From: a virus | Virus record (IMG/VR): IMGVR_UViG_3300037245_001529 | Coordinates: 1 to 43,416 of that record | Direction: 5' to 3' (one strand) | DNA length: 43,416 nucleotides | In this document: piece by piece, positions 128-40,991 of the stretch | Layout: each line of letters begins with the position of its first letter | Position numbering within the stretch: the stretch's first letter is position 1 | The notes under the pieces: generated by a model | What the model was told of the DNA's origin: nothing | The model's database searches: none | The model's input: only the letters and a program-made list of their open reading frames with translations | Made by a program: the position numbers and the translations under genes

Positions 128-1608
128 TCTTCTTTCCTGTAGCACGGTTTTGGCTCGGCATTTATAGAGTCCCAAAGGTATCGCCAGCACAACTTCAACA
201 CTCTATTTTGAAGTGCTTCATCTTGGTCGGGAGCCGCACCGAGAAGTGTCTCAAGCGAGTATCTGTCTTCGTTGCTCAATGGCATTATTTCGCTGCGCGA
301 CTCAAACCCGTCAACTTCTGTTTCAAAAAGGTGGGTGGTAGGCCAATAATTCAACAGGCAATCACATTTTTCGCAACGAGCTTGATAGTCTGAGTCGTGG
401 TTTTCCCACCCGCCATCGACTACATTATCCCTATCACCTTCCTTGGCATTAAGTTCGTCAACTACTTTCTTGGCGCAATCATAGCAATAATCTTCTGACG
501 AGTCACAATCTCGCCCAGTTATCCAATGCCCTTGTTTGGTCTTTGTTGGCTTCAAGAGGCTCCTTATTAAATCAAAAGTTACACCTTCAGCCTCAATGTC
601 GGCATGGCTTATATCCTGCACCCTCTCCCCTCGCACAGACTTGACTTTGAGCCAGAGCCGGGCAAGCGACTTGAACATATACAAGCTGGATTTGCCGACG
701 TAAGGCTTTTTCCAATTCATAAACCTGTCCCATTCCCGTTGTGTTACCTCGTTAAAAAGGCACGAGTCGTCGCGAGTATATCGCCCCCAAAGTAGCTTCT
801 TTACTGTGTCGTCGCCCTCAATCCTGAACGGCTCCCGCACCCAGAGCAACGACTCTATCTGATATTCACTATATGCCAAATGCCACCCTGAGACATTTGC
901 AATGCCCTTGCTGCCTGTCGCTGGCTGCACAACCCACTTTTGATTGCCCACCGTAAGTGTTGACACTCCTCGTCTGTCAGTTTTGCCATTGGGTGCTTCT
1001 CTCCCTCGCAACCTCTCCCGTGAGCCTTTCTGTCCTGCCAATTTTCTATTTGGGTTCCCCATTTCAAATTTTCCGGCTTGTTGTTTGACGGGTTCCCATC
1101 CAAATGCCTCACCTGCGTAGATTTTTTCTCCGGCATCCCGTGAAAGGCCATACATACAAGACGATGGATAGACCTTGTAACCCTCTTGCTGTCGTGGCAC
1201 AGGGAGATTATCATGTACCCCTTTCCCTTTTGCCTGTGCCCTTTTAATGGATACCAGTCCACGTATTCCTTTCTCCCAAAGCCTTTGTATTTCGTCCGAG
1301 AGTAAATTTGTCCATCGGAGCCAGCTAAGTAATCCTGATTCGGCGAAACAGGTATCGGTTTCAGTTCGACTTTCTGCATGACTAAATCCTTTCTTAATAA
1401 CATTAACATCTGTAAGGATACCATATATCCGGTCATCTGTCAAGCTATAAATAAAAGATTCTCTGCAAATTCTCCGCGTTTGCGTCTTGAGCCGTTTTTT
1501 TGACCCGCACTTCGGACACTCAATCTCAAGCGTTATCGTACCACATTGCGAACAGGTCATTATTGCAACGACCATATCGGCCTTGAATAATATCGGATGC
1601 TCTTTCAT
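1..1608 (-). CDS. Composite ASCH-type phage protein, crossing the contig join
   Basis: The reading frame starts at ATG 1608, one base after the TGA of the upstream gene, runs off the left edge and, on the circle, ends at TAG 43284-43286 after 537 codons. The family framework is recognisable in pieces: an N-terminus with PILF and KTQTRR motifs (residues 5-8 and 41-46), LLWVREPF near 254, RLWLKVKSVRGERVQDIS near 317-334, and LWDSIN plus a WVVEFER end. This is the ASCH-domain protein often labelled phage morphogenetic protein; its role is unproven. Three foreign blocks interrupt the framework: a CxxC/CxxC zinc ribbon (Cys19, 22, 31, 34), the region overlapping the HNH gene (about 77-251), and a second Cys-rich block (Cys375, 378, 412, 415). 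Whether the whole ORF is translated as one protein is unknown. Confidence 0.75.
   Translation of the reverse strand, partial: MKEHPILFKADMVVAIMTCSQCGTITLEIECPKCGSKKRLKTQTRRICRESFIYSLTDDRIYGILTDVNVIKKGFSHAESRTETDTCFAESGLLSWLRWTNLLSDEIQRLWEKGIRGLVSIKRAQAKGKGVHDNLPVPRQQEGYKVYPSSCMYGLSRDAGEKIYAGEAFGWEPVKQQAGKFEMGNPNRKLAGQKGSRERLRGREAPNGKTDRRGVSTLTVGNQKWVVQPATGSKGIANVSGWHLAYSEYQIESLLWVREPFRIEGDDTVKKLLWGRYTRDDSCLFNEVTQREWDRFMNWKKPYVGKSSLYMFKSLARLWLKVKSVRGERVQDISHADIEAEGVTFDLIRSLLKPTKTKQGHWITGRDCDSSEDYCYDCAKKVVDELNAKEGDRDNVVDGGWENHDSDYQARCEKCDCLLNYWPTTHLFETEVDGFESRSEIMPLSNEDRYSLETLLGAAPDQDEALQNRVLKLCWRYLWDSINAEPKPCYRKEEITHYVSYPWQDIRETREYRGKPWYVYGNPLQWVVEFERTEKE
855..1379 (-). CDS. HNH homing endonuclease (NUMOD4 + HNH + HTH)
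   Basis: A 174-residue protein. The N-terminal part (YLAGSDGQIYSRTK) resembles the NUMOD4 motif. The central HRLVCMAFHG ... VRHLDGNPSNNKPENLKWGT block is the HNH_3 nuclease signature. The C-terminal helix-turn-helix (SQRQAARALQMSQGGI) is typical of DNA-binding tails in phage homing endonucleases. I start it at ATG 1379 because GAAAGGA precedes it at good spacing; an upstream ATG at 1436 has no such site. It has its own promoter-like sequence (1415-1443). It lies inside the ASCH gene in a different frame, and that frame stays open along its whole length. The position suggests a freestanding mobile endonuclease that landed in the gene. Too little non-coding sequence remains for an ordinary group I intron. 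Confidence 0.88.
   Translation of the reverse strand: MQKVELKPIPVSPNQDYLAGSDGQIYSRTKYKGFGRKEYVDWYPLKGHRQKGKGYMIISLCHDSKRVTRSIHRLVCMAFHGMPEKKSTQVRHLDGNPSNNKPENLKWGTQIENWQDRKAHGRGCEGEKHPMAKLTDEECQHLRWAIKSGLCSQRQAARALQMSQGGIWHIVNIR
1415..1443 (-). promoter_or_regulatory. sigma70-like promoter of the HNH gene
   Basis: On the minus strand TTGACA (1438-1443) is followed after exactly 17 bases by TATCCT (1415-1420). It ends 36 bases upstream of the HNH start codon. The promoter lies within the coding frame of the ASCH gene, so it is likely to have arrived with the endonuclease. Confidence 0.6.
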
Positions 1609-1609
1609 T

Positions 1610-2350
1610 TCATATTTTCCTTACTCTGAATTCTTCCGGCCATTCTGCGATCTTCTTATTGCACTTACCGTTGAGCGGGATCTGTTTGACGTGGATTTTG
1701 ACTTTTGCGTCTCGGCAATCGCTCATAAGATACCTAATGGCATTAAGTGAACACAACCTTTGCTCCGGCCCCGACTCACACCCCGCAAACATATAATCTA
1801 CCTGTTCTAAGTCGGGGATATAGGGCATGTCTTCGAGCAACGGCTCAAATGAAACAAACCTCTTTGCCGCAGGGGTCTGAACCAAGTCAGCTATCCGCCC
1901 GACGTTGTCCTGGTTCTCTACGGTTACGCCGAGGTGGACGTTGGGGGGTAAGGGGCCGCCATCGCCGCCATAAGTTGAAACATAATCTCGCATTTCCGCT
2001 GACCGTTTCGTAAGCAAGTAAAATAAGTGTTGCGGGCATTGTTCAATAATATCCATTACTCGGTCTATCCACTCAAAAGGTACCGATTCATGGAACAAGT
2101 CCGACATCGAGCATACGAATATCTTGCGGGGCTTGCGCCAGTGCAGGGGTATTGCGAGTTTTTTATTTACAAGAACGGTTTTGCCATTCCACTTCTTGCC
2201 GTCCATAACAGAATAATACCCCGGCGTGCCCATCGCTACTTGCCGCCGGGCCATCTTCTCCGCATAGCAGTTGAGGCACCCCGCGCTTATTTTGCTGCAT
2301 CCGACTATCGGGTTCCAGCTTTCGTCCGCCCACGATATTTTCGTTGCCAT
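1610..2350 (-). CDS. DUF5131 (phage Gp37/Gp68) family protein
   Basis: A 246-residue protein with the family hallmark near its start: WNPIVGC, then C-x6-C-x2-CY (Cys18, Cys25, Cys28). This arrangement resembles a radical-SAM-like iron-sulfur site. Further conserved blocks are WRKPRKIFVCSMSDLFHE, HLFYLLTKR, HLGVTVENQ, RFVSFEPLLE and FAGCESGP, a barrel-like order. The function of the family is not established; modification of a nucleotide or nucleic acid is only an inference. I choose ATG 2350 (MATKISW), with GGGAGAG upstream, over a longer frame beginning at 2470 that would overlap the preceding gene. It is followed one base later by the ASCH gene, so the two probably form one translation unit. 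Confidence 0.85.
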   Translation of the reverse strand: MATKISWADESWNPIVGCSKISAGCLNCYAEKMARRQVAMGTPGYYSVMDGKKWNGKTVLVNKKLAIPLHWRKPRKIFVCSMSDLFHESVPFEWIDRVMDIIEQCPQHLFYLLTKRSAEMRDYVSTYGGDGGPLPPNVHLGVTVENQDNVGRIADLVQTPAAKRFVSFEPLLEDMPYIPDLEQVDYMFAGCESGPEQRLCSLNAIRYLMSDCRDAKVKIHVKQIPLNGKCNKKIAEWPEEFRVRKI

Positions 2351-2354
2351 CGCC

Positions 2355-2555
2355 TTACTCTCCCAATTTCTCAGCTTGCAAACACATCGGCTCTCCATTA
2401 CGGCACCAATAGTCGATACATTCTTGCGTGTGCCATCCCGCAGGGTTCCCGTCGTCATATTCAACCGCAATCATTATCTCAGCCCGCTTAAACTTCCGGG
2501 TGCATGTCTGCGGCTCACTTCCCAAGGCCTGCATTCTTTGTTTTACTGTCGCCAT
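2355..2555 (-). CDS. Small hypothetical protein
   Basis: A 66-residue protein with an acidic middle section and several cysteines in the second half (CIDYWC, PMC), which may bind metal. I do not recognise the family. It starts at ATG 2555 behind AAAGGA and ends four bases before the DUF5131 gene. Its leader (2556-2573) is an exact 18-base copy of the leader of the gene starting at 3519. Confidence 0.7.
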   Translation of the reverse strand: MATVKQRMQALGSEPQTCTRKFKRAEIMIAVEYDDGNPAGWHTQECIDYWCRNGEPMCLQAEKLGE

Positions 2556-23359: not shown

Positions 23360-26353
23360 CTATTTACTTATTATACCCCTGGACCCTATCGTATCTTTTT
23401 CATAATGTACGTCAAAATCCAATATCGCCACGCCACCGGCATAATTATCACCAACCGATGCCTCCCGCCCAATCCTTATCATCAACACGGACGAAATAGT
23501 GTGCCCCGTACCGTCTATCCCAGCGACAGTAAGGTTTCCGAGTTGGTGCAGATACTGCGAATTTACCCCTGTCGCGTGCGTGGTTGTAACAAGAGTCGTA
23601 TTTGCCGGAAAATCCTCACCCTGGTCCGCCCACCAATACTCGAAGTCCATATCGAAGTTGTCGGACGGGTCAACGTCTGTCATTGTAAAGAAATGGATAT
23701 GCGGATATATCGTACTGCCCTCTTTCCAACTATGAGGCAGTTGGACAGTTGCCAGAACTTCATCGCCATCGCCGAACACAAACGCCCACACACCGGCAGA
23801 ACCGGCTCCGTCATCGGCTACCTTTGTAAGAGTCGGGTCATTTGCCGCTCCGCCGAACAGGGCGCGGCTCAGGGGCGTTACGTAGTCGGCCCATACCGTA
23901 GCCGCACCATTGAATTCAAGCGTTCCGTCGGCTTCAAACTCAGAATAGTCTGTTGTCCCACCATCGCCTATGCGAGTAATTTCCGGGATACTTACCCCTG
24001 CCCCATCTGTGCCTATTTGGAACCACTCGGCAGAGCCTATGTCTACGATTTGGAAAGAGCCGAACTTATTGCTCAGGCCGGTCGGGAAACCATGTATATG
24101 TACTTCCGGCGTTTCAGCATCAGTGGCGGCTTCAAACATCCCAATGTTAATACCGGCAAATGGAACCAAAGATAGCGTGGTTGGTGAGTCAAGAACCCTA
24201 AATATCGTTTGGCCCTCCATTTGGATTCGAGCCGCACCAGTTCCCTTTCCGTTCAAAATTAAAATAGTTTCTGTATTCGTCCCCTCATCTGTCTGAAATA
24301 TAAACTGCCCCTTAGTCCATTTAATAAACACATTTGAAGTATCGTGAAATATCTGTATCTTATCCGAACCATCCGCAGAACCTATTTCGACTCTATGGGT
24401 CACCGCATCCACTACCAAGTCTGTTGTGTTTACCGTGAGGCTGTTAATGATAGCAACGTCTGCACCAGAGTCGATAGTGAGGGCAGTGGCAGGCGTATCG
24501 CCCAACGCACCTGTGTTGACACTGAATACCATCTTCCCCTTTTCGTCATCAGCCGCCCCGTCGTGGCTTACTTCTATGCGGGCAAGGGTGGACTCAGCCG
24601 AAGCCGTTGTCTGGTGACCTTTGAAGTTCAAACGAGACTCACGCCCACCATCGCCATCTTCGACTGTGCTGTTGTGCAGGGTGATGTATGGTTCAGTGGA
24701 GGTCATTTCAAGAAGGTTTTCGGGGGCGATTTCGCCTATGCCTAAGTTGCCATCATGTAAAATAGTTACTCTAATTGGTATATCTGCACCGCCCCCAGAA
24801 GGTTTGGTGGCAAAATGTAAGTTGCCATAAGAAGCGGCCCCCACCCTCTCGTGAACTATTGCTGCACCAACAGCTGCTGGCCCGTCTGTAATACCAAAAC
24901 CTATACCAATACCCTCTCCATTATCGTTGCCCAAGTTGTGCAAATCTACTGTTAAATTAGATACATCAATATTTGCACCACTCATTGCGTTGGCTATAGT
25001 ATGTATCGTCAGTTCGTGTTCCGGACTCGCCGTCCCTATCCCCACCCGATGAGTAATTGGTTCAACTACCAGCGTAGTAGTGTCTACGGTGAGCCCAGCG
25101 TCAAGTTGCATGTCATGGTCGAATATAGACAGGTCGTTATCACTTTCATACGTGTATTTCCCTCTATTTACCCCGCTGCCGTCGAAGTTCAGGACAACAT
25201 CCGTGGAGTTTCCCATAAGAAAGTCAAAGCTGGTGCCTATATTGAAATCTAAAGTATGATTAACAGCGGGGATGCCGATGGTACCATCGAGAAAAATACC
25301 AACCCAATTAAAAGTACCACTGCCAAGTTGTTTGGAAGAGGCGGACGGGATGACATTGCCCGTATTCGTTAAATTCACGCCGTTAAAATCCGTGCTGGTG
25401 TTTACTACCAGTGCGTCAACGTCCAGCGAATCGGCGTCAATATCTCCGGCGGCCGTAATGTCATTGCCGCCCATAGCGAGGTTGCCGCCTAAAATCGTTG
25501 TGGTCGTAACGATCAGAGCGTCGATGGTGACAAGCGGTGTCTGTGTGTCGACGTTAAGAATTACCGCGGGGTTGGCAACGGCAGTGAAAGACCATTGATC
25601 CCCAAGAACAAAAACATCTGATCCGGAATCAAGGAACGCTATTCTGATTCCAGCGTCCAGCGTTGTAAAGGTGAATGGCGCAGCCACGCCCGTCGCCTGC
25701 TCTATCGTGTCCTTGCTCCACTTGTACGTATCAGGATTAGTGCCATCTATCTCTATTACATAATCAGCATCCGAGCCATCGGTGAAATTGCCAGTAATCC
25801 GCAATTGAAACGGCGACCCATCAGACTCCTGAACAACGTCAGTAAACGCAGCAACTACAAGAAGTTCATTAGCACTACTTCCAGATAGCTTCAAAGAAGA
25901 ACCTGTACCTAAAGCATCATTGAAAATAGTGCCAGTAACATCGAGGTCGCCAATTACTTCGATGGTAGCCCCTTGTGTTTCAAGAATTATGTTGTTAGTA
26001 AGGGAATTCAGCGTGATCCCTGTGCGTTCTATATCTATCCGTGGAAGCCTGTTACCGATAGAAAAAGCCAGGAAACCATTAAAAGATTTAATGTCAGCGC
26101 CGTTTGAAAGCGCATCTATTTGGAAATTACCATCCAGTAGCGAGATAAACGACGGCCTGAGCACCATATTATTTAGCGGGGTGTCCACAAGCGTCATCTT
26201 AGGGCTGCCGTCACCGAAATCATCAAGCACCATTTCTCCGGCAGGCCAGATTAATTTATTACCATTGCTCGGGAATTCACGGTCGCCGCGGGTCCCGAAA
26301 CAAGTGCCCGCCAGAAGGATCAAGAGCCATGTATAATACCTGCTTCTTGCCAT
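23360..26353 (-). CDS. Tail fibre-like protein with Sec signal peptide
   Basis: A 997-residue protein, beta-rich with many repeats of the fibre type (LTVDTTTLVVEPITHRVGIG and LTVNTTDLVVDAVTHRVEIG are paralogous units that end in HRV-x-IG). The C-terminal domain (FGDGDEVLATVQLPHSWKEG, then YPHIHFFT and FEYWWADQG) is found at the ends of many phage fibres and probably binds the receptor. The start is odd: MARSRYYTWLLILLAGTCFG has a basic n-region and hydrophobic core like a signal peptide. I use ATG 26353; one at 26368 is also possible. It overlaps the gene upstream by 34 bases. A tail fibre should not need export, so the signal is a puzzle. Confidence 0.8.
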   Translation of the reverse strand: MARSRYYTWLLILLAGTCFGTRGDREFPSNGNKLIWPAGEMVLDDFGDGSPKMTLVDTPLNNMVLRPSFISLLDGNFQIDALSNGADIKSFNGFLAFSIGNRLPRIDIERTGITLNSLTNNIILETQGATIEVIGDLDVTGTIFNDALGTGSSLKLSGSSANELLVVAAFTDVVQESDGSPFQLRITGNFTDGSDADYVIEIDGTNPDTYKWSKDTIEQATGVAAPFTFTTLDAGIRIAFLDSGSDVFVLGDQWSFTAVANPAVILNVDTQTPLVTIDALIVTTTTILGGNLAMGGNDITAAGDIDADSLDVDALVVNTSTDFNGVNLTNTGNVIPSASSKQLGSGTFNWVGIFLDGTIGIPAVNHTLDFNIGTSFDFLMGNSTDVVLNFDGSGVNRGKYTYESDNDLSIFDHDMQLDAGLTVDTTTLVVEPITHRVGIGTASPEHELTIHTIANAMSGANIDVSNLTVDLHNLGNDNGEGIGIGFGITDGPAAVGAAIVHERVGAASYGNLHFATKPSGGGADIPIRVTILHDGNLGIGEIAPENLLEMTSTEPYITLHNSTVEDGDGGRESRLNFKGHQTTASAESTLARIEVSHDGAADDEKGKMVFSVNTGALGDTPATALTIDSGADVAIINSLTVNTTDLVVDAVTHRVEIGSADGSDKIQIFHDTSNVFIKWTKGQFIFQTDEGTNTETILILNGKGTGAARIQMEGQTIFRVLDSPTTLSLVPFAGINIGMFEAATDAETPEVHIHGFPTGLSNKFGSFQIVDIGSAEWFQIGTDGAGVSIPEITRIGDGGTTDYSEFEADGTLEFNGAATVWADYVTPLSRALFGGAANDPTLTKVADDGAGSAGVWAFVFGDGDEVLATVQLPHSWKEGSTIYPHIHFFTMTDVDPSDNFDMDFEYWWADQGEDFPANTTLVTTTHATGVNSQYLHQLGNLTVAGIDGTGHTISSVLMIRIGREASVGDNYAGGVAILDFDVHYEKDTIGSRGIISK

Positions 26354-26577
26354 TCTGCACCATCCCATTTCTGAAATTCTAAGTCACCATTTTCGTTATT
26401 GATTACACGCCACGTGTTCGCCAAAAAACCGCCTTCAATTATATTGCTGTAAAAGTTTTCGTACCATGCGTCGAATTCCCGCATGAAATTATGAAGCCAT
26501 CTTTTCATATCTTCCACGCTTTCTATATTTTCTATTGCGACTCGCTCGAACGGGATTTGAGAAGGCAATAAGCTCAT
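26320..26577 (-). CDS. Small tail-region protein
   Basis: An 85-residue protein. A helical N-terminus (ESVEDMKRWLHNFMREFDAW) is followed by NTWRVINNENGDLEFQKWDG, a beta hairpin motif typical of small phage proteins encoded next to fibres. It overlaps the hub gene by four bases (ATGA) and the fibre gene by 34, so it is tied into tail assembly. The role is unknown; a chaperone or fibre adaptor are options. Confidence 0.65.
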   Translation of the reverse strand: MSLLPSQIPFERVAIENIESVEDMKRWLHNFMREFDAWYENFYSNIIEGGFLANTWRVINNENGDLEFQKWDGAEWQEAGIIHGS

Positions 26578-28415
26578 CGATCATCGTCTTCCTCAAAGTC
26601 CCGGAAATCTATTCCGATAACATCCATCAATGCCGTACTCTCAAGTTTTATATTCGCATTTTGAAACCTCACATCAAACGGTAGATGTGGAATCACGAAC
26701 TCTCGGCTATTGGAAGCGGTAAGCGACATCGTGCCAAGGAAAGTCCATCCGCTTGATTCGTTGTCTCGGATATACACCGAAACGAAACTTCCCGCCGTTC
26801 GCCTGCGAAAGGTAACGTACATCCCATTATTAACTCGATTAAACGGAAAGAGCGACCCGAGATTCGTATTGAAAACAAAGGCCCGCGTCATGTCGTTGCC
26901 GTCGTCTGACTCTGACATATACATATCGAACGTATCGCCGTTGTAATCCGATACCAGGATAAGCGGGAACCCGACAACTGTTAGATTCGAGTCGTATTTG
27001 TTATCCCACGCCGCACCCCAATCGTCATAGTTGGCGTAGGGCAGGTTGTCGTATGTAAACGCCGTTTGCCTGGTGTATTTGCCGAACGCCCTGACAGGCA
27101 AGTCTATAATGAAACTATCCGCCGTGGCCGGATTGAAACTTATAATCTTATCGTTTGTCTCGGAACTCCCGAAAGCAAACGCCAGATTGATTGTCCCGAA
27201 AGCATCGATGAACGTCATTTGCGCAAACTCGGCAACCGACGTATTGAGGTTTTTGATTGTCTTATCAACCAGGGCCGACACGTCTATCGGCGTGCGTATC
27301 TCTCGTATGGTCAGATCGGAAGCAAGCCAATATAATCGGCCTGACCGGTCATTGCTGATCGCATGTTGCGAAATCGCACCTACCTTTAATTCTTCTTCCA
27401 GCCATGTAAACACAATCGGGTCTGTTACGAGTGTGCCCCTTATATGCCGTTCCTGCTTGAACATGATGAGGTTGCCTTGCCACTTGCCCGCACCGACAAG
27501 GAAATCCGGTGTGTTGTCGAAATTCTTCAACCCCGCATCACCGTTACTGTTGATATCGAAGTCCGTCGGGTCACTCCGGGTGGAAAAGTTGACTCTCAGT
27601 GGGAAAACGTCGTTGTTGTTGTGAGTAACATAGCACAGGAATAAATACGACTCATAGCTCGCAAGGAACCGGGCTTTTACGACGAACGTAGTTCCATCCT
27701 CAACATCAACCCCCGACGCACTGCCCATGTCAGCGAAGCTATTACTGACACTTCCACCGGTTTGATTGACAAACCATTTTTGGACGAGGTCAATATTGTT
27801 CGTTGCGTAAACGTCGTCAAGGTGGGTAACGATACTCCAATGCTCGACCGTATCAGGTGTCCCGGACGTGAACTTTACAGTCAGCGACTTATCCGTAGCG
27901 TTCCACAGAAAAACATGGTTGACCGTCGCCAGAAGCAATAACTCCGCCTGGTTGACCTGCCTGACGTGTCGATGGTATTCAATGACCGGCGTTGTGCCTA
28001 CGAATACGCTGCCGGACCCCGCATCTGTCGTGATAGCCTCCACGGTAACTATACTCGACGTCGTTGGGAGAGTGTCAACTGTAAACGTGATATTATTGCC
28101 ATCTTCGTCGTTGCCATTGACCCTGATCGTATCGCCGACCCCTAAAGCTGTCGATCCTGCCGAATGGTCGCCGGTGATGTTGATTGTTTTCGTTCCTGAG
28201 ACAATGGATGTTATCGCAAATACATCGGTCGGCGTTGCAATCTTTACGCTCTCGGAATCAAACAACTCGGCAAGCCTGCCCTTGATCGACTTGGCCTCCC
28301 CATGCCGCACGCGCATATTAAGCGACTCGTCCGCCATGAACGCTTCGTCCAGCCGAATCGTCGGTATCTGTTCGTTTTTACCGACTTCGCCGCTTATTAT
28401 TGCAAAATCCGCCAT
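26574..28415 (-). CDS. Tail hub / packaged DNA stabilisation protein (P22 gp10-like)
   Basis: A 613-residue protein, beta-rich throughout, with repeated propeller-like strands (LLLLATVNHVFLWNA, YESYLFLCYVTHNN, KWQGNLIMFKQERHIRG, RSGRLYWLASDLTIREI). These match the layout of podovirus tail-hub proteins such as P22 gp10 and the tail tubular B group, which plug the portal tail. The assignment is by fold pattern and by position between connector and fibre genes. The C-terminus is acidic. Confidence 0.65.
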   Translation of the reverse strand: MADFAIISGEVGKNEQIPTIRLDEAFMADESLNMRVRHGEAKSIKGRLAELFDSESVKIATPTDVFAITSIVSGTKTINITGDHSAGSTALGVGDTIRVNGNDEDGNNITFTVDTLPTTSSIVTVEAITTDAGSGSVFVGTTPVIEYHRHVRQVNQAELLLLATVNHVFLWNATDKSLTVKFTSGTPDTVEHWSIVTHLDDVYATNNIDLVQKWFVNQTGGSVSNSFADMGSASGVDVEDGTTFVVKARFLASYESYLFLCYVTHNNNDVFPLRVNFSTRSDPTDFDINSNGDAGLKNFDNTPDFLVGAGKWQGNLIMFKQERHIRGTLVTDPIVFTWLEEELKVGAISQHAISNDRSGRLYWLASDLTIREIRTPIDVSALVDKTIKNLNTSVAEFAQMTFIDAFGTINLAFAFGSSETNDKIISFNPATADSFIIDLPVRAFGKYTRQTAFTYDNLPYANYDDWGAAWDNKYDSNLTVVGFPLILVSDYNGDTFDMYMSESDDGNDMTRAFVFNTNLGSLFPFNRVNNGMYVTFRRRTAGSFVSVYIRDNESSGWTFLGTMSLTASNSREFVIPHLPFDVRFQNANIKLESTALMDVIGIDFRDFEEDDDR

Positions 28416-30172: not shown

Positions 30173-32083
30173 TTATTGTGTATCAAACGTAACGCCACCG
30201 TCAGCAGCAGTCATACCTCTCACGTACCAATTTGTACCATCACAAATAAGTATGACGTAATCGCCAATAACAGCAACGCCGTCTTTGAAGTTACAACGGT
30301 CTTGTGCCTGCGCAGTTGGGCCATCATCGCCGGTATCTACGTCAGCCTCAAGAACCATACCATACATGATGTTTTCATGGGTATTCCCGGTAGAAATAGT
30401 ATAGTCAGCACTTTCGGGGGCGTCTGCAATGATAAAAGTTACAACCATACCAGCAGCCGTCGATGCAGTAGGGAGCGTTGACGCAAACTCTGTCGCATCA
30501 CTAAGAACGAATATCTTTCCAGCTTCGTCTGTTGTTATTACATTCGTTGCCGCAACAACCTCTAACGGAAAATTTATCCCCGAGGCAGAATCCAAAGTCA
30601 GATTAGCGCCGGTAAACTCAAGAGCCTCATCGGAAGCATCCCACAGCACACCTTCGGCAGAAGTAGCGGCCCACAACTTGAAATCCAGGCCTAAATCAGT
30701 CAAGCCGATAGAAACAGTCCCCGTCTCAGCAATAATACCGTCAATGATAAGGTCTGTGCCAGTTGCATAAATCTTGATATCGCCGGTTCCGACAGCATCG
30801 CCAAACACAAGTAGGTCGCTGTCGCCCAGGAAAATATCAGCAGCATCAACCAAGAGTGCATCGGCGTCCGAATCCCACAAAATCATAGCGGCTGCTGTAT
30901 CGGCACCCCATAATTGGAAATCCGCACCGGCGGTTGTGGCACCAATATCGAAACTATCAGAACCATCGCCTGTAGCCGGTGTCCAAAGCAGTTTTTTGGC
31001 TGTAGCCGAAGTCCCTGTCCAATCATCATTTGTGCCGAAAATAATCGTACCATCATCGTTAAGTTGTAGGTGAGCATCCTGGAATCTTAACTCTGCCGCC
31101 CCTTCGTCCCAGATCATATAATCTGCCGCATCGCTGCCATACCACCACATATCGAAGTCGTTTGTGCCGTTGCCCCATTTCCAGATAGTTCCATCGGCTA
31201 CGGCTGTAACGTCCAGGTCGGTCTGATCCCACTTTATTTCAATATCTGGCGCGGCGGCGGTATTGCCAAACCCGACAACCGCGTCGTCAAGTACGCCCAT
31301 AGTATCCTCGGAGGCATCCCAACGAATATCGGCAGCAGTTCCGTCGAACAATACATCCCCTTGTTGCGTCACTACTCCGGTTACGGTGTGCGTCCCGGCT
31401 ATGGTAGTGGTATTGGGAACGTGCGTAATAGTAAAATCGTTACCTGTTCCGACAGATAATATCACATTGTCGTTAAACTCAAACCTGTTGTCGCTCGCGT
31501 CCCATGTGAGATTGTAGGTGGAGGTAGCCCCCCATAAATTCAGATCGGCCGGAAAACTCGTATTGCCAATCCAGTACGCCGAAGTATCGGGGGTTGCCGG
31601 CGTCCACGTCATCCGATCTGATGCAGTGCCCGATTCAGCAACCCAGTCGGCGCTTGAACCGAATGTCGCGGTTGCACCATCGGCATACGTAGTCGAACTA
31701 ATCGCCACGATGTAAGAGGGGAAAACAAGGGTGCCCTCCGTTGCCGTTCGGGTCCGATGATTCGCGTTTGTCAGGATGTTTGTACCATCGGTGATACTGA
31801 AATCGTATCCGTCCGGACCATACCATGACAGCACACCATCGATTAGCGTGGTATTAGTCGAGACTTCGGTGATGGGGATTTCCATAGTCTTGTTGAGTCC
31901 CCGGTCCGAGAAAATAATCGCATCCGTCGTCGTATTTGGCGCGTAGATTTCCACCGAAGTAATATCGGTGACCGTGACGCCCCTTTCGTCAACGATTGTA
32001 ATGCTATGCCACGGTGCGTTTGTTTGAGCAAATGCCGCCCCCATAAAGAGGAGCAACATCGCTACAAGAAATATCTTTTTCAT
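30173..32083 (-). CDS. Repetitive beta protein with strong signal peptide, next to the capsid gene
   Basis: A 636-residue protein. The first 19 residues, MKKIFLVAMLLLFMGAAFA, form a classical signal peptide with an AFA cleavage site. The mature part has at least four repeats of a LWGA ... WD-S-D-x-L pattern (for example LNLWGATSTYNLTWDASDNR, FQLWGADTAAAMILWDSDAD, FKLWAATSAEGVLWDASDEA), a rod-like beta fold common in environmental phage fibres. The C-terminal domain (VVTFIIADAPESADYTI, GDYVILICDGTNWYVRG) resembles capsid decoration or fibre tips. It lies right after the capsid gene and before a strong terminator, so it should be made in quantity. It may be a head fibre or a secreted surface protein. 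Confidence 0.75.
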   Translation of the reverse strand: MKKIFLVAMLLLFMGAAFAQTNAPWHSITIVDERGVTVTDITSVEIYAPNTTTDAIIFSDRGLNKTMEIPITEVSTNTTLIDGVLSWYGPDGYDFSITDGTNILTNANHRTRTATEGTLVFPSYIVAISSTTYADGATATFGSSADWVAESGTASDRMTWTPATPDTSAYWIGNTSFPADLNLWGATSTYNLTWDASDNRFEFNDNVILSVGTGNDFTITHVPNTTTIAGTHTVTGVVTQQGDVLFDGTAADIRWDASEDTMGVLDDAVVGFGNTAAAPDIEIKWDQTDLDVTAVADGTIWKWGNGTNDFDMWWYGSDAADYMIWDEGAAELRFQDAHLQLNDDGTIIFGTNDDWTGTSATAKKLLWTPATGDGSDSFDIGATTAGADFQLWGADTAAAMILWDSDADALLVDAADIFLGDSDLLVFGDAVGTGDIKIYATGTDLIIDGIIAETGTVSIGLTDLGLDFKLWAATSAEGVLWDASDEALEFTGANLTLDSASGINFPLEVVAATNVITTDEAGKIFVLSDATEFASTLPTASTAAGMVVTFIIADAPESADYTISTGNTHENIMYGMVLEADVDTGDDGPTAQAQDRCNFKDGVAVIGDYVILICDGTNWYVRGMTAADGGVTFDTQ

Positions 32084-32133: not shown

Positions 32134-33513
32134 TTACGCATCCACCTGAACCTCGGTGTCAAGAACGAAAATCGACTCGTCCGAAGTCGGACTCGATGTC
32201 CCGTGAGCGTTATAGATAATACGCTTGACGCCGTAGATCGTCGCGACCTTGATTTTGGGCTTGTCGTTATCGACAAAGTCCTCGGACCATGCTGGTTTCT
32301 TGGCCCAACCAAAGTGAATCGCCTGAGCGCCCATGAACAGCGACCTTGCAACGGTCCTGGCGCTTTCAACAGCATCGGTTGTAGCCGTCCGCCCTGGATT
32401 GAGCAGGAAGCCCTCAGCGAGCGTTGTGCCACCCGCTCCGGTTCGCCTGTGGATGCGGTCATAAGAGAACACGAGCATCCCGTCGTGGTAGAACTCGGCT
32501 CCGGTGAAGATAGGATTCAGGTTGCCGCGGATATTGGCCTGCTGTTGCATGACCTTCCAGCTATTGTCCCCGGTTTCCGCTCTGATGTCCTTGATTTGGA
32601 GCGGGTCGACCAGGACGATAAAAATCTTCGCAAGGACCGGGCCTGAAAACTTGCCGGACCGAACATCGTCCGGGTTCATCTTCGACACGTCGCGGACTAT
32701 GACAGGCCGGAACCGCGGTGTAGCTGCAATCATTTTCCGTTTGATGAGTTCCATGATCGTGGTGCCGAATCTGTTGTTTGCCGATGTGTCCGCTGACAGT
32801 AAGGCGTCGGTTCCGAATGACGCACCCACAACCCCACCTGCCGTCGCCAATGTACCCGCCGCGTTTTGCCCGCCGTAATGAATGCGGTCAGACGTAGGAT
32901 ACGACTCGTTAATCGTCTGGATGTCATTGCTGGACGAATTGACGTTATACAAGCCCGCTGCGGACGTGCTAATGTCATCTTCCATCGCTTCGGACAACCA
33001 TTCACCGAGGTCCACCCTTGAATCCTCGCGGAACTCTGAGGCCGTAAGCTGCTCGCTGACATCGCCCGCCGAGACTGTGCTGTTGGCGCGACCGTGGACC
33101 TCAGTCGACATATTCCGTCGCCTGATCTGGCCTTCGTTGCCGGTCGTGTTGCCATCGTCGCCGACGCCCACATTATCAAGCGGCTGCCGGGATTGCGTGA
33201 TGATGGTACCGCCCTTCTTCGTGAGAAGGTCAGTATTGACGTGGATTAGCGAATTCCTGTCCTTGCCCATCATGCCCGTAAAGAACATATTCTGCAGGCC
33301 ATAAGCAAAAACAGCTAATGACCACACAGTTTGGGCGCGTGGGTCGGTGAATGCGTAACTGGTCGATGTGAAAAACCGCCTGAACTTCGACGGCATGCCG
33401 ACAAAGTCGGTTTCTGCCTCTTGTTTCCCCATGGCCCAGTCACGCAAGCCTTGCTTGGAGAAGTTGACAAAGTTATCCTGGCCGAATCTATCGGCCAAAC
33501 CAAACTCATACAT
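32134..33513 (-). CDS. Major capsid protein (N4 gp56-like, DUF4043 group)
   Basis: A 459-residue protein. The pattern follows the N4 gp56 capsid family: a flexible start, GEWLSEAMEDDISTSAAGLY, IMELIKRKMIAATPRFRPVI, then KIFIVLVDPLQIKDIRAETG, WKVMQQQANIRGNLNPIFTG and AEFYHDGMLVFSYDRI, a C-terminal region with GAQAIHFGWAKKPAW and a final beta section. It forms the icosahedral shell by HK97-type folding. The scaffold-like gene lies directly upstream, as expected. ATG 33513. Confidence 0.9.
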   Translation of the reverse strand: MYEFGLADRFGQDNFVNFSKQGLRDWAMGKQEAETDFVGMPSKFRRFFTSTSYAFTDPRAQTVWSLAVFAYGLQNMFFTGMMGKDRNSLIHVNTDLLTKKGGTIITQSRQPLDNVGVGDDGNTTGNEGQIRRRNMSTEVHGRANSTVSAGDVSEQLTASEFREDSRVDLGEWLSEAMEDDISTSAAGLYNVNSSSNDIQTINESYPTSDRIHYGGQNAAGTLATAGGVVGASFGTDALLSADTSANNRFGTTIMELIKRKMIAATPRFRPVIVRDVSKMNPDDVRSGKFSGPVLAKIFIVLVDPLQIKDIRAETGDNSWKVMQQQANIRGNLNPIFTGAEFYHDGMLVFSYDRIHRRTGAGGTTLAEGFLLNPGRTATTDAVESARTVARSLFMGAQAIHFGWAKKPAWSEDFVDNDKPKIKVATIYGVKRIIYNAHGTSSPTSDESIFVLDTEVQVDA

Positions 33514-36369: not shown

Positions 36370-36573
36370 TTATGTCAACTCCGTTTTGAGATATTCTTTT
36401 ACGGCTGCGGCTGCGGTAGTTGCGTCCTCACTCTGCGGCTGGAATTCTAACCCGCCCGCGGTCGATACGATGCTATTCACGAAAGCCACAATCTCATTTA
36501 TTTTCTCGCGATGGTCAACAACTTCCTCGAAAGTCGTCAGTTCAACATCAATGTTGGGTAATTTCTCCATCAT
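36370..36573 (-). CDS. Small helical protein after portal
   Basis: A 67-residue protein, acidic, with helices TFEEVVDHREKINEIVAFVN and DATTAAAAVKEYLKTEL. Two adjacent ATGs (36573 and 36570) fit the GAGGAG; the second has better spacing. It overlaps the end of the portal gene, so it is probably co-translated. No family is recognised. Confidence 0.65.
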   Translation of the reverse strand: MMEKLPNIDVELTTFEEVVDHREKINEIVAFVNSIVSTAGGLEFQPQSEDATTAAAAVKEYLKTELT

Positions 36574-38600
36574 GCACTCCTCGACACACTAACATTGGCG
36601 TCTGATTGCTGGACTTGCTGGATCTTCCGATTCCTGCCTGCCTTGATCTCTTCCTTGTTGTCGACGTCAGTGCCATCAATCAACGTATCACCATCAAGCC
36701 CGATATCTCCACCCTCAATTAATATCTTGTGGAGCTCAAACAACTCCGCTGATTTGATCATACGCATTGTCTCGGACAGCGGGCTCAAGCCGACCTTTGT
36801 ACTGTACTTGCCCTTCCTCATGCTGCGGATTGAATCAAGCAACATGGCCTCGGCCATCGGTAACGCCTCGGCATTGATAATCTGCTGAAACTCATTGAAA
36901 ATACGAAAATCTTTTTGTAGCAGTTCGATCATTGTTTGTTGGGTTTCGGGGGCGGCATTTTGAAGAGCGGTAATGTCAATGTTTTCAGGCTCATCGATTA
37001 CGATACCCTGCTGCTCAAACTGCTCGGTCACGACCTGCCGGGCGAACTCCATGAACTCCTTGTCCAGCAAGTCCTCGCGGTCAACGATCTCGCGTATCTC
37101 GTCCTCACTGAAAATGTCGTTGTTGCGGATGACCTGGATAATGAAGTCGCCTTGGATTGTCGTTGTCCAGTCCCAGTTACGGAATACCGAAGCCGTACCC
37201 GTCAAGGCGTTCTGTTGCTTCAAAGCAATCGCCGAAGCGACCCTGTCCTTATCGGTTGTTGGGTCTTCAAGCCGGACGCCGGACTCTTTTCGCAGGTTCT
37301 CCTGGGCCCGCTCCTCAAGTATGGTCATCGCTGTCGGGAACTCGTTTTGCTTCACCTTCTCGACAGAATCACCGAATTTCGACTTATCTATCACGACTCC
37401 ATCCTCACTGCCGTGCCTCTCCAGCCATGTCGTATTCTCACCGAGAGGGTCGCTTCCGATAATATATCCTGTGTTTGCAAGCTGCTTGACCATGTTGAGG
37501 CTCTGGGAATGCAGCCAGTTAATCTCCTCCTGCGTGCCGATCATATCTTCGGTCATACTGCCCTTATTGCCGTTTTCGAGATAAGGCCAAAACGGGAAAA
37601 CCGGGTACATCAGCGTATTCCATTCGTTCACACGATCTTCAAGGAAAATATCGCCTACCCTGATGGTGTGGTGGATGACGTTGCAAATCACTTCTTCGAC
37701 CGAGAAAACTTCGGGGTTTGCTTCTGTCTCTTTCTTCGCCCTCGTTATCTGCTTATCGTCCATAAGTAAACGGGCCTCCATTTCGGATTCCCGGTTATCG
37801 AACCACCAAACGCATGTCTTCGGCTCCCTCCACCATGTATGCGATACTTTGAACCTTGCCCTGGACAGGACGTCTGTGTCCGTCCGGGTATTTATAGCGA
37901 AAGACTTTTCGTTCCTGCGCCGCCGGCCTGTCAAGAAGTCGATGACTGTATTGACCACGCCGAACACGACACCCTCGCCTGTGGTTGAATGGCCCAGAGC
38001 GGCCAACTCCTCTTTCTTCGCTGGATATTCAGCATTTATCAAATCCTTGTCAACCCACGGCTCCCAGATAACGTACTTGCAACCCTGCTCCCGGTGGTTT
38101 ATGTCGTAGATGATGCAGGTTGGGTCGAAAAGCACCTCATGCTCAACCACCCGCTCCATTTTGATATTTGCGTGCTTGGGATCCTCGTTTAGGTCTTTCG
38201 TGGCGACCATGACGCCTGTCCCTACGGCGATACCTGACTCAAAACATTGCGACTTCTCGAATCGCATCCGCTCGGCGTCAAAGACCTGTTTGGCGCACGC
38301 GGTCAACAGCTTGGCAATGGTGTCGGTCCCGGTCCTGGTCGGCGTTACCGTGATCTGCCGCGGGTTCTTGATCTCTGTGCCTGCCACTTGCTTGATCTGC
38401 GGCTTAATCAGCGGGATAGTCAATGCGAACTTGCCCTTATCCTCCATGCTCTGGCGTAATACCGGCTCCCACTGCCGCCCGGACCGGAAATCGTCCGACT
38501 TGATCATCCGCTCGAAAAGGTCATCCGAGCCGTTCATGCCGTCGACCCGCATCTTCTTGACCTTTTCGATTTTTTTGTTTTCGGCTTCTGTGTTTGCCAT
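36570..38600 (-). CDS. Portal protein
   Basis: A 676-residue protein. Typical segments for a P22-like podovirus portal are present: a helical start, FRSGRQWEPVLRQ, PLIKPQIKQVAGTEIKNPRQ, HEVLFDPTC and MYPVFPFWPYLENGNKGSMT, then NWLHSQSLNMVKQLANTGY and a long helical C-terminus that would line the channel. It forms the dodecameric ring at the packaging vertex. I start at ATG 38600 (MANTEAENKK); the longer frame to 38804 passes through the lipoprotein gene. The stop overlaps the next start. Confidence 0.85.
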   Translation of the reverse strand: MANTEAENKKIEKVKKMRVDGMNGSDDLFERMIKSDDFRSGRQWEPVLRQSMEDKGKFALTIPLIKPQIKQVAGTEIKNPRQITVTPTRTGTDTIAKLLTACAKQVFDAERMRFEKSQCFESGIAVGTGVMVATKDLNEDPKHANIKMERVVEHEVLFDPTCIIYDINHREQGCKYVIWEPWVDKDLINAEYPAKKEELAALGHSTTGEGVVFGVVNTVIDFLTGRRRRNEKSFAINTRTDTDVLSRARFKVSHTWWREPKTCVWWFDNRESEMEARLLMDDKQITRAKKETEANPEVFSVEEVICNVIHHTIRVGDIFLEDRVNEWNTLMYPVFPFWPYLENGNKGSMTEDMIGTQEEINWLHSQSLNMVKQLANTGYIIGSDPLGENTTWLERHGSEDGVVIDKSKFGDSVEKVKQNEFPTAMTILEERAQENLRKESGVRLEDPTTDKDRVASAIALKQQNALTGTASVFRNWDWTTTIQGDFIIQVIRNNDIFSEDEIREIVDREDLLDKEFMEFARQVVTEQFEQQGIVIDEPENIDITALQNAAPETQQTMIELLQKDFRIFNEFQQIINAEALPMAEAMLLDSIRSMRKGKYSTKVGLSPLSETMRMIKSAELFELHKILIEGGDIGLDGDTLIDGTDVDNKEEIKAGRNRKIQQVQQSDANVSVSRSA

Positions 38601-38610
38601 TATGCCGCCC

Positions 38611-38868
38611 TCATTCGTTCGGATCAGGAATATACTGGTTGATCTCAAGCGTCCGAACTCGTCGGGTAAGTTCGTCGATAATAAGGCTCTGCTTAAAGTC
38701 CAGCCGAGACTTATTGTCATCGTCGAAATACTCAACCCACTGAGGCGGCAGGTCGCCCTGGCCCCAGATAGGCGTCTGGGCCTGCGGGGTCTGCTCTTCC
38801 TCAATACACCCGCTCAGTGATACTGCTGCGGCCAATGCGATTATGATACATACTATTTTCCACTTCAT
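38611..38868 (-). CDS. Lipoprotein between terminase and portal
   Basis: An 85-residue protein with MKWKIVCIIIALAAAVSLSGC, a type II signal peptide with lipobox LSGC. The mature chain is acidic, with PIWGQGDLPPQWVEYFDDDN and a C-terminal helix. The ATG overlaps the stop of the preceding lipoprotein as ATGA, so the two are expressed as a pair. It sits within the structural block, where a membrane lipoprotein is unexpected. A role in the host envelope, such as superinfection exclusion, is only a guess. Confidence 0.75.
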   Translation of the reverse strand: MKWKIVCIIIALAAAVSLSGCIEEEQTPQAQTPIWGQGDLPPQWVEYFDDDNKSRLDFKQSLIIDELTRRVRTLEINQYIPDPNE

Positions 38869-39548: not shown

Positions 39549-40991
39549 TCACATACTCATCGCATGCCGACGTTGTGGCCGCTCACGCTCTAACATTCGA
39601 GGACTCTCAGGCTTTACGCGCCTGATGCCGTACCGACCGTAAACATAAGCCAACCCGCGGTCAGGAGAACAGCCAAGGTCCTTCTTGACCTCGTCATTCT
39701 TCAGCATGATCATCTTGCCGCTGTTGGTTATCTTGTACCTGGACAGCGCCACAAGCTGCCTGCGAGTCTCAGGGTCGGCTATCGGCTCGACTTTAAGCTG
39801 CCGTATCTCCTGGGCTGCCCACTCAACCGCTTCGGCTTTCTTATTGGCGAATCGATCGGAATCCTCGACCTTCTCGGCGCTGTTGAAGTATTGGACGTTG
39901 TAGCCAGCCTCGTCGATCTTGAGCCCGTCTGCAACCCCCTTGCCGTTACCGATACAGTCAACGATAAAGTTCTTGGTCCCAAGCCGTCGGGCCATCTCCT
40001 TGCCCTCGAATACGACCTCATGAGTCATGGTCCAGTTGACCTGCTTTTCCTCGCCCTCTTTGATCCGCCCATTCTCCATGCCCTTCAATGCACACTGATC
40101 GCCGCCAAACGCCGGGTCGATAGCTACGATCCGCCGGGTCTCAGGTATCGTGATCCGCAGCGAATCCCAGTTGACGGTCTTGAGCCGTTCGAGCATTGCC
40201 GACGTGATTAAGGTTCGTTCCTCACTTGTCAGTCGCCGACACTGCATCTCCTGGTCGTATTCCTCTTGGGTAATAATGCCCTGGGCGACCTCTTGAAGCA
40301 TCACGTCCAGCTCTTCGCGTGGAATAATGCCCGAGACGTCGGCTATCAGGCGGCTCGCGAAGTTGGCCCGCTTGCAGTTGGTCGCCGCTCCACGGGTCGG
40401 CAGTTCGCCTTCAACTTCAATGTTTGCGGCATTGTTGAACATCCGTGTTGCATGGTTGTCGCCTTTGGGCGTATACATAAACATAGCCCACCTTGGCCGG
40501 TGTCCCGGCTTTGGCATCCCGGCTATAATCGGACGGAATATCTCACCCCATATTTTATGTTTATGCAGAGCCCATTCGTCAAAACCCACACCGTCGCAAT
40601 CTGGCCCCCGCAAGGCATCCGGCTCATCTGACCCTCCGAATTTGAGCATAGACCTGTTTGCAAACGTTATTAGCATTTTCTGCTGATTGACACTGTACCC
40701 CATCTCTGCCTTGTCTGGCAGTGCATCCCACAGCATCGTAGGGTCATCCCAAACAACATTTCGAGCCCATACTTGCGTAGGAGCGATATAGATGTACTTT
40801 GACTTGCTGTATTTGCAGGCTTCGCGTACTGCTAAACGTATAAACAACGTTGTTTTGTGGGCGCGCCTATGCCACTCAAGGTACAGAAAGCGAATGATCG
40901 CATCGAGGTCGGCGGGCATCGTGTCGAAAGCGTCAAGGACTTGGAGTTCATGTCGCTGAAGTGTCAAGTTGTACTCCGCACTTGGTATCAC
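39549..40991 (-). CDS. terL: Terminase large subunit (GTG start)
   Basis: A 480-residue packaging motor. The ATPase has a variant Walker A, EWHRRAHKTTLF (40-50), with His in place of the usual Gly before Lys, and a Walker B with the catalytic acidic pair at 138-139 in DGVGFDEWAL. The nuclease domain has Asp292 in VAIDPAFGGD, Asp345 in FIVDCIGNGKG and an Asp near 443 in CSPDRGLAYVYG. It cuts and pumps genomic DNA through the portal. The start is GTG 40991, overlapping terS as GTGA. The His substitution probably reflects a lineage variant, as flanking residues are all conserved. Confidence 0.92.
   Translation of the reverse strand: MIPSAEYNLTLQRHELQVLDAFDTMPADLDAIIRFLYLEWHRRAHKTTLFIRLAVREACKYSKSKYIYIAPTQVWARNVVWDDPTMLWDALPDKAEMGYSVNQQKMLITFANRSMLKFGGSDEPDALRGPDCDGVGFDEWALHKHKIWGEIFRPIIAGMPKPGHRPRWAMFMYTPKGDNHATRMFNNAANIEVEGELPTRGAATNCKRANFASRLIADVSGIIPREELDVMLQEVAQGIITQEEYDQEMQCRRLTSEERTLITSAMLERLKTVNWDSLRITIPETRRIVAIDPAFGGDQCALKGMENGRIKEGEEKQVNWTMTHEVVFEGKEMARRLGTKNFIVDCIGNGKGVADGLKIDEAGYNVQYFNSAEKVEDSDRFANKKAEAVEWAAQEIRQLKVEPIADPETRRQLVALSRYKITNSGKMIMLKNDEVKKDLGCSPDRGLAYVYGRYGIRRVKPESPRMLERERPQRRHAMSM

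Follow-up and report, generated by a model that had tools for sequence, protein, structure and literature searches.

At the start of the window, which is the whole 43,416-base virus record IMGVR_UViG_3300037245_001529 and to which all positions refer, a complete HNH endonuclease gene lies nested in an ASCH-like gene on the minus strand, in another reading frame (Table 1). The two frames are shifted by one base, with codon position 3 of the HNH gene falling on codon position 1 of the ASCH-like gene. The original prediction that the frame of the host gene has no stop codon across the whole HNH gene was borne out: this frame is open from 1620 to 1, giving 540 codons, or 536 counted from the ATG at 1608, and it runs off the start of the contig, so that the window holds no stop codon for it. 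Family motifs of the host protein had also been described on both sides of the HNH gene. Indeed, PHROG 874 matches the 5' and the 3' parts; the first match covers the first 58 residues of 1380-1608, and the host protein matches the family from about residue 250 onward, with a C-terminal motif that can be aligned with relatives. The leader between the 5' part and the HNH gene has a 5' edge that is uncertain by about 15 bases. Its YRLTDD motif is shared by relatives, including L020 and L021, in which the position of the element in the host gene differs. Upstream, the stop codon of a DUF5131 gene adjoins the start of the host gene. This neighbour also matches "radical SAM mobile pair protein A", below the threshold (1.5e-16), and in L005 a gene of similar sequence also adjoins the nested gene.

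Table 1. Features of the nested locus and its upstream neighbour (positions in the window)
Feature	Position	Strand	Basis
3' part of the host gene, LWVREPF.. to ..WVVEFERTEKE; stop codon beyond the contig end	1..854	-	PHROG 874 1.4e-14
HNH endonuclease gene, 174 aa plus stop; same DNA open in the host frame	855..1379	-	HNH profile matches; stop counts
Insert leader, host frame reads ..FIYSLTDDRIYGIL..	1380..1467	-	YRLTDD motif recurring in relatives
Shine-Dalgarno-like AAAGGA, 7 nt before ATG 1379	1387..1392	-	read from sequence
Promoter-like site for HNH: TTGACA (1443-1438), 17 nt, TATCCT (1420-1415)	1415..1443	-	sequence scan
5' part of the ASCH-like host gene, ATG 1608 to KTQTRRI	1468..1608	-	PHROG 874; alignment with uninserted L001 and nested relatives
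DUF5131 protein, upstream neighbour of the host gene	1610..2470	-	Pfam DUF5131 1.6e-69

The HNH protein matches Pfam HNH_3 (3.6e-11), PHROG 59 (8.8e-37) and I-HmuI (PDB 1u3e; 2.4e-6 alone, 2.1e-10 with the family profile), and its assignment by motif and homology to the HNH homing endonucleases of the HNH_3/I-HmuI type is solid. I-HmuI is its nearest solved relative, and the family residues aligned to H75 and N96 of I-HmuI are invariant; in contrast, all eight members of the set A1 have Arg at the residue aligned to D74, and a group I intron carries I-HmuI, whereas no such intron was found at the window HNH gene. The label of the host is softer. The host protein matches PHROG 874 (5e-20), a phage family of unassigned function with weak similarity to ASCH; the Pfam ASCH model matches relatives of the host only, below the model cut-off; and ASCH-type structures (3s9x, 2z0t and 9kyf) are among the weak Foldseek matches. 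These weak profile and fold matches suggest an ASCH-like protein. As for expression, the promoter and the Shine-Dalgarno site ascribed to the HNH gene are both present as promoter-like and Shine-Dalgarno-like sequences. The former is sigma-70-like with 10/12 matches, in a 900-base region that has 3 such sites vs 1.5 expected, and TTGACA/TATxxT-like sites are also seen in L012, L020, L021, L028 and L027.

A search with the HNH protein and its alignment returned 8, then 18 viral loci, plus one genome contig; the extra nested copy from the genome scan is L029, on a Syntrophaceae MAG contig. After removal of repeats and of L027, which serves as a control, 14 distinct loci remained besides the window, and these 15 members have HNH genes that are 50-82% identical. 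All of them lie in ASCH-like genes, except one (L018) that lies beside a remnant of such a gene. The original prediction had named a sequencing error, a group I intron core or broken frames in relatives as evidence against it, and none of these held: the arrangement is found in many independent contigs, no intron was matched, and in 13 of the 15 members the host frame runs unbroken from the KTQTRR part into the host sequence downstream. Three HNH genes each recur identically in more than one contig (L016/L017, L022/L023 and L024/L025), which argues against assembly error. The integrity of the host gene is not always kept: L020 has a one-base frame break at the 5' junction, with an open frame from there onward, and most of the L018 host gene has been lost, leaving a C-terminal remnant together with the open frame. 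The insertion point varies: it follows KTQTRR/KPQP in most members and GDRL in L016 and L024, and it is shifted farther downstream in L020 and L021. Across members, the HNH frame stands in a constant relation to the host frame. In most of the uninserted relatives, a variable loop of ~31-81 residues occupies the insertion site. Among characterised phages, tblastn with the C-terminal part of the host gave no match, and the HNH matches listed there reach ~30-36% identity over most of the length, or up to 47% over part of it.

The central question is whether the open host frame is a matter of chance. It had been estimated at 61/64 to the power 175, on the assumption of random codons, but this is the wrong null; synonymous shuffling within the window HNH gene gives 8.9 expected host-frame stops vs 0 observed. 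None of 20,000 shuffles reached zero, so that P is about 5e-5 or less for this gene alone, and the third frame has 11 stops vs 10.3 expected. The same holds throughout the family, where each of the 15 members has 0 host-frame stops inside its HNH gene and the synonymous shuffles expect 2.9-9.1 each. The summed log10 P is about -47 with the members treated as independent and residual relatedness ignored. A chance open frame was thus rejected by the shuffles.

In this register a host-frame stop arises wherever an HNH codon ending in T is followed by a codon beginning with AA, AG or GA. The original prediction had proposed to look for synonymous constraint among relatives. HNH codons ending in T or C use 0 T and 227 C in this context in the 15 genes, vs 393 T and 456 C elsewhere in the same genes (T = 46%; Fisher 8e-53, or 9e-40 comparing only next codons that start with A or G). 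In the same risky context, the other long ORFs on these contigs use T at 31% and the other genes of the window at 37%. The control L027, a 55% identical HNH, breaks its ASCH-like host at a different site and in a different frame; it has 23-25 such stops, as expected of an unconstrained gene. The count is 4-27 in seven further phage HNH genes. L027, these seven genes and the flanking genes speak against a codon preference common to HNH genes or to these phages in general, which was therefore rejected. Codon identity at residues shared between members is 0.44 vs 0.39 in shuffles, and synonymous sites between members are nearly saturated; thus, the absence of stops reflects continuing selection in each lineage, not shared ancestry. 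The HNH DNA is kept free of stops in the host frame by selection, as shown statistically. The proposal that the insertion was selected not to disrupt its host, giving a dual-frame region, is strongly supported by these 15 distinct members with no host-frame stop.

We propose the following mechanism. A short leader and an I-HmuI-type HNH gene would have entered an ASCH-like phage gene at its variable loop, between KTQTRR(xxKPQP) and LWVRE. The HNH protein would be made from its own promoter and ribosome site, and it would spread the element by cutting empty ASCH-like genes, as homology and distribution suggest. HNH identity averages 0.64 vs 0.47 for the hosts, and the two have no positive correlation (rho -0.26; 12 members, distances only). 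An element moving among divergent host genes would be expected to show this pattern, and we infer active homing from it. At the same time, ribosomes starting at the ASCH ATG could pass through the insert, since the host frame is free of stops, and would make one chain with an internal segment of ~190-200 residues. This segment, in a naturally variable loop and predicted to be disordered, would be a tolerated spacer, in place of the splicing that protects the host of an intron or intein. Read from the sequences, the element is very probably a splice-free mobile homing element whose HNH gene has evolved to be translated through.

The nature of the internal segment bears on a first alternative, namely that the host-frame product is a domain or adds an activity to the ASCH-like protein, so that two real proteins are selected in the overlap. 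BLOSUM similarity in the host frame exceeds stop-constrained shuffles by more than in the control frame (z 9.8 vs 4.8, with members treated as independent), but the excess in plain identity is not above that of the control frame (z 8.8 vs 10.1, on the same footing), and the hydropathy of the segment is that of the shuffles. Variation in the YRLTDD leader, a stretch picked by eye, falls mostly on the third position of the host frame (0.50 vs 0.26 and 0.13). AlphaFold predicts the host core well, with blocks mostly at 80-95 in L013 and lower in the window protein, and the insert mostly below 50 in both; the prediction is thus one of folded host halves and a disordered insert. Given its slight similarity excess over stop-constrained shuffles, the segment may be more than a spacer; a conserved domain was rejected, with a slight conservation excess only and no hydropathy signal, and two selected proteins in the overlap seem unlikely. 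A spacer suits the through-frame better than a working domain, because conservation beyond the absence of stops is only slight, and extra residues at this site may be tolerated, because a variable loop is present there in most uninserted relatives.

A second alternative is that the HNH gene simply splits the ASCH-like gene, with the frame open by chance or from a stop-free ancestor and the host left as two fragments or lost. Homing endonucleases are known to split phage genes in T4-type phages. In Aeromonas phage Aeh1, the endonuclease gene mobE interrupts the phage gene nrdA without an intron, and the halves are separate proteins. The likeness to our locus is a phage gene interrupted by an endonuclease gene with no intron; the difference is that the Aeh1 gene is split into halves, whereas the host frame is kept open here. 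L027, which breaks its ASCH-like host, is nearer to the Aeh1 case, and the junction break of L020 and the host loss of L018 also speak for a split. However, 0 of 227 risky codons end in T at near-saturated synonymous sites, and the frame is continuous in 13 of the 15 members, which makes a simple split very unlikely for the family. The idea that the ASCH-like gene is kept only as two fragments, which the original prediction had offered as its other option, is likewise disfavoured where members are intact, since avoiding stops would serve no purpose in fragments, but it fits the broken frame of L027 and the one-base break of L020.

Removal of the insert by an unrecognised RNA or protein splicing, with the open frame incidental or serving unspliced transcripts, is hardly credible: the distribution is intron- or intein-like, with similar elements in divergent hosts, but Rfam gave no group I or group II intron match even at E 10, a group I core is implausible because only ~90 bases of the insert fall outside the HNH gene, no Hint or splicing model of inteins was matched, the insert junctions have no conserved residues in the alignment of members, and RNA splicing would make an open frame unnecessary. 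A group I intron was thus rejected by the absent ribozyme core match, and an intein by the lack of a model match together with the unconserved junctions. Neither an RNA intron nor separate fragments would require an open frame, and protein splicing shows no visible machinery, so read-through to one host chain is the reading that remains.

Homing endonucleases are thought to spare their hosts through introns, inteins or an intergenic position. Homing combined with read-through is probably a distinct and repeatedly evolved way to do so, in which the coding sequence of the nuclease is cleared of host-frame stops, and which would have arisen at least twice with opposite frame shifts, in the ASCH-like family and in the ShiLan domain. 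If this is true, the same DNA specifies a nuclease when read in one frame and, in the other, a tolerated protein spacer, without a splicing intron or intein. It would offer a clear natural example of overlapping reading frames whose constraint can be measured. Such elements are easily missed where annotation covers just one of the two frames.

Dual coding by a homing endonuclease without an intron or intein had been called novel, and this holds in part: the host gene is new, but an out-of-frame HNH gene in an open phage methylase gene with neither intron nor intein was published in 2025 as the ShiLan domain of actinobacteriophage DNA methylases (PMC11855218). The insertion in Pacc40 gp60 is also an out-of-frame HNH in an actinobacteriophage DNA methylase (PMC11855218, 2025; PMC9957025, 2023), and a further phage with such an insertion, Applejack, has been noted (PMC12613952). 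Like our family, ShiLan has an HNH gene in another frame of a phage gene, a stop-free host frame and no intron or intein signature, together with a patchy spread uncoupled from the host-gene phylogeny and an insert predicted to loop out. There are also differences. Its host gene is a methylase, whereas ours is ASCH-like; its HNH belongs to another subfamily, with zinc fingers; its host frame is the HNH frame +1, whereas here it is HNH -1, the opposite shift; and no ribosome-binding site was detected there, a leaderless start being proposed, whereas promoter-like and Shine-Dalgarno-like sites are present here. The other HNH subfamily and the opposite frame shift make the ASCH-like family an independent case in a new host gene; the element appears to work like ShiLan and not to be of the same lineage. 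Recomputed from JN020143, the ShiLan gene has 64% GC and its open frame a shuffle P of 0.016, so that selection is not demonstrable from that one gene. Dual coding seems to be how the whole ASCH-like family spares its host, and the family bears a statistical mark of selection that the earlier published case does not show; as far as we found in the open-access literature, it is the first in which statistics support selection on the through-frame.

Aeromonas phage ST4 (OR261032.1) offers a different solution. Its ASCH-like protein ST4_051 has an HNH domain after the GDLL/GDRL point, as in some of our members, but there HNH and host are fused in a single frame, and stops abound in the other frames. 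ST4_051 corresponds to L110:1117-2223 and is annotated as hypothetical.

Several further observations concern the window and its relatives. In both L012 and L019, a -10-like hexamer precedes the HNH start codon by only a few bases, which would suggest a leaderless HNH mRNA, as proposed for ShiLan. The ASCH-like protein of the window carries a 24-residue zinc-ribbon-like stretch, MTCSQCGTITLEIECPKCGSKKRL, in frame at 1489-1560 (-), where aligned relatives have a short turn only (e.g. LDGR) before KTQTRR. A second in-frame extra domain with CxxC pairs lies near the C-terminus of the host protein (304-573, -); it is 36% like a distinct ORF of L002 (2905-3474), and the uninserted relative L001 lacks it. 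Elsewhere in the window, the long ORFs at 23360-26368, 26574-28415 and 30173-32083 have no PHROG match at 1e-5, and matches to a major head protein (32134-33513), a portal (36570-38804) and a terminase large subunit (39549-40991) point to a tailed phage.
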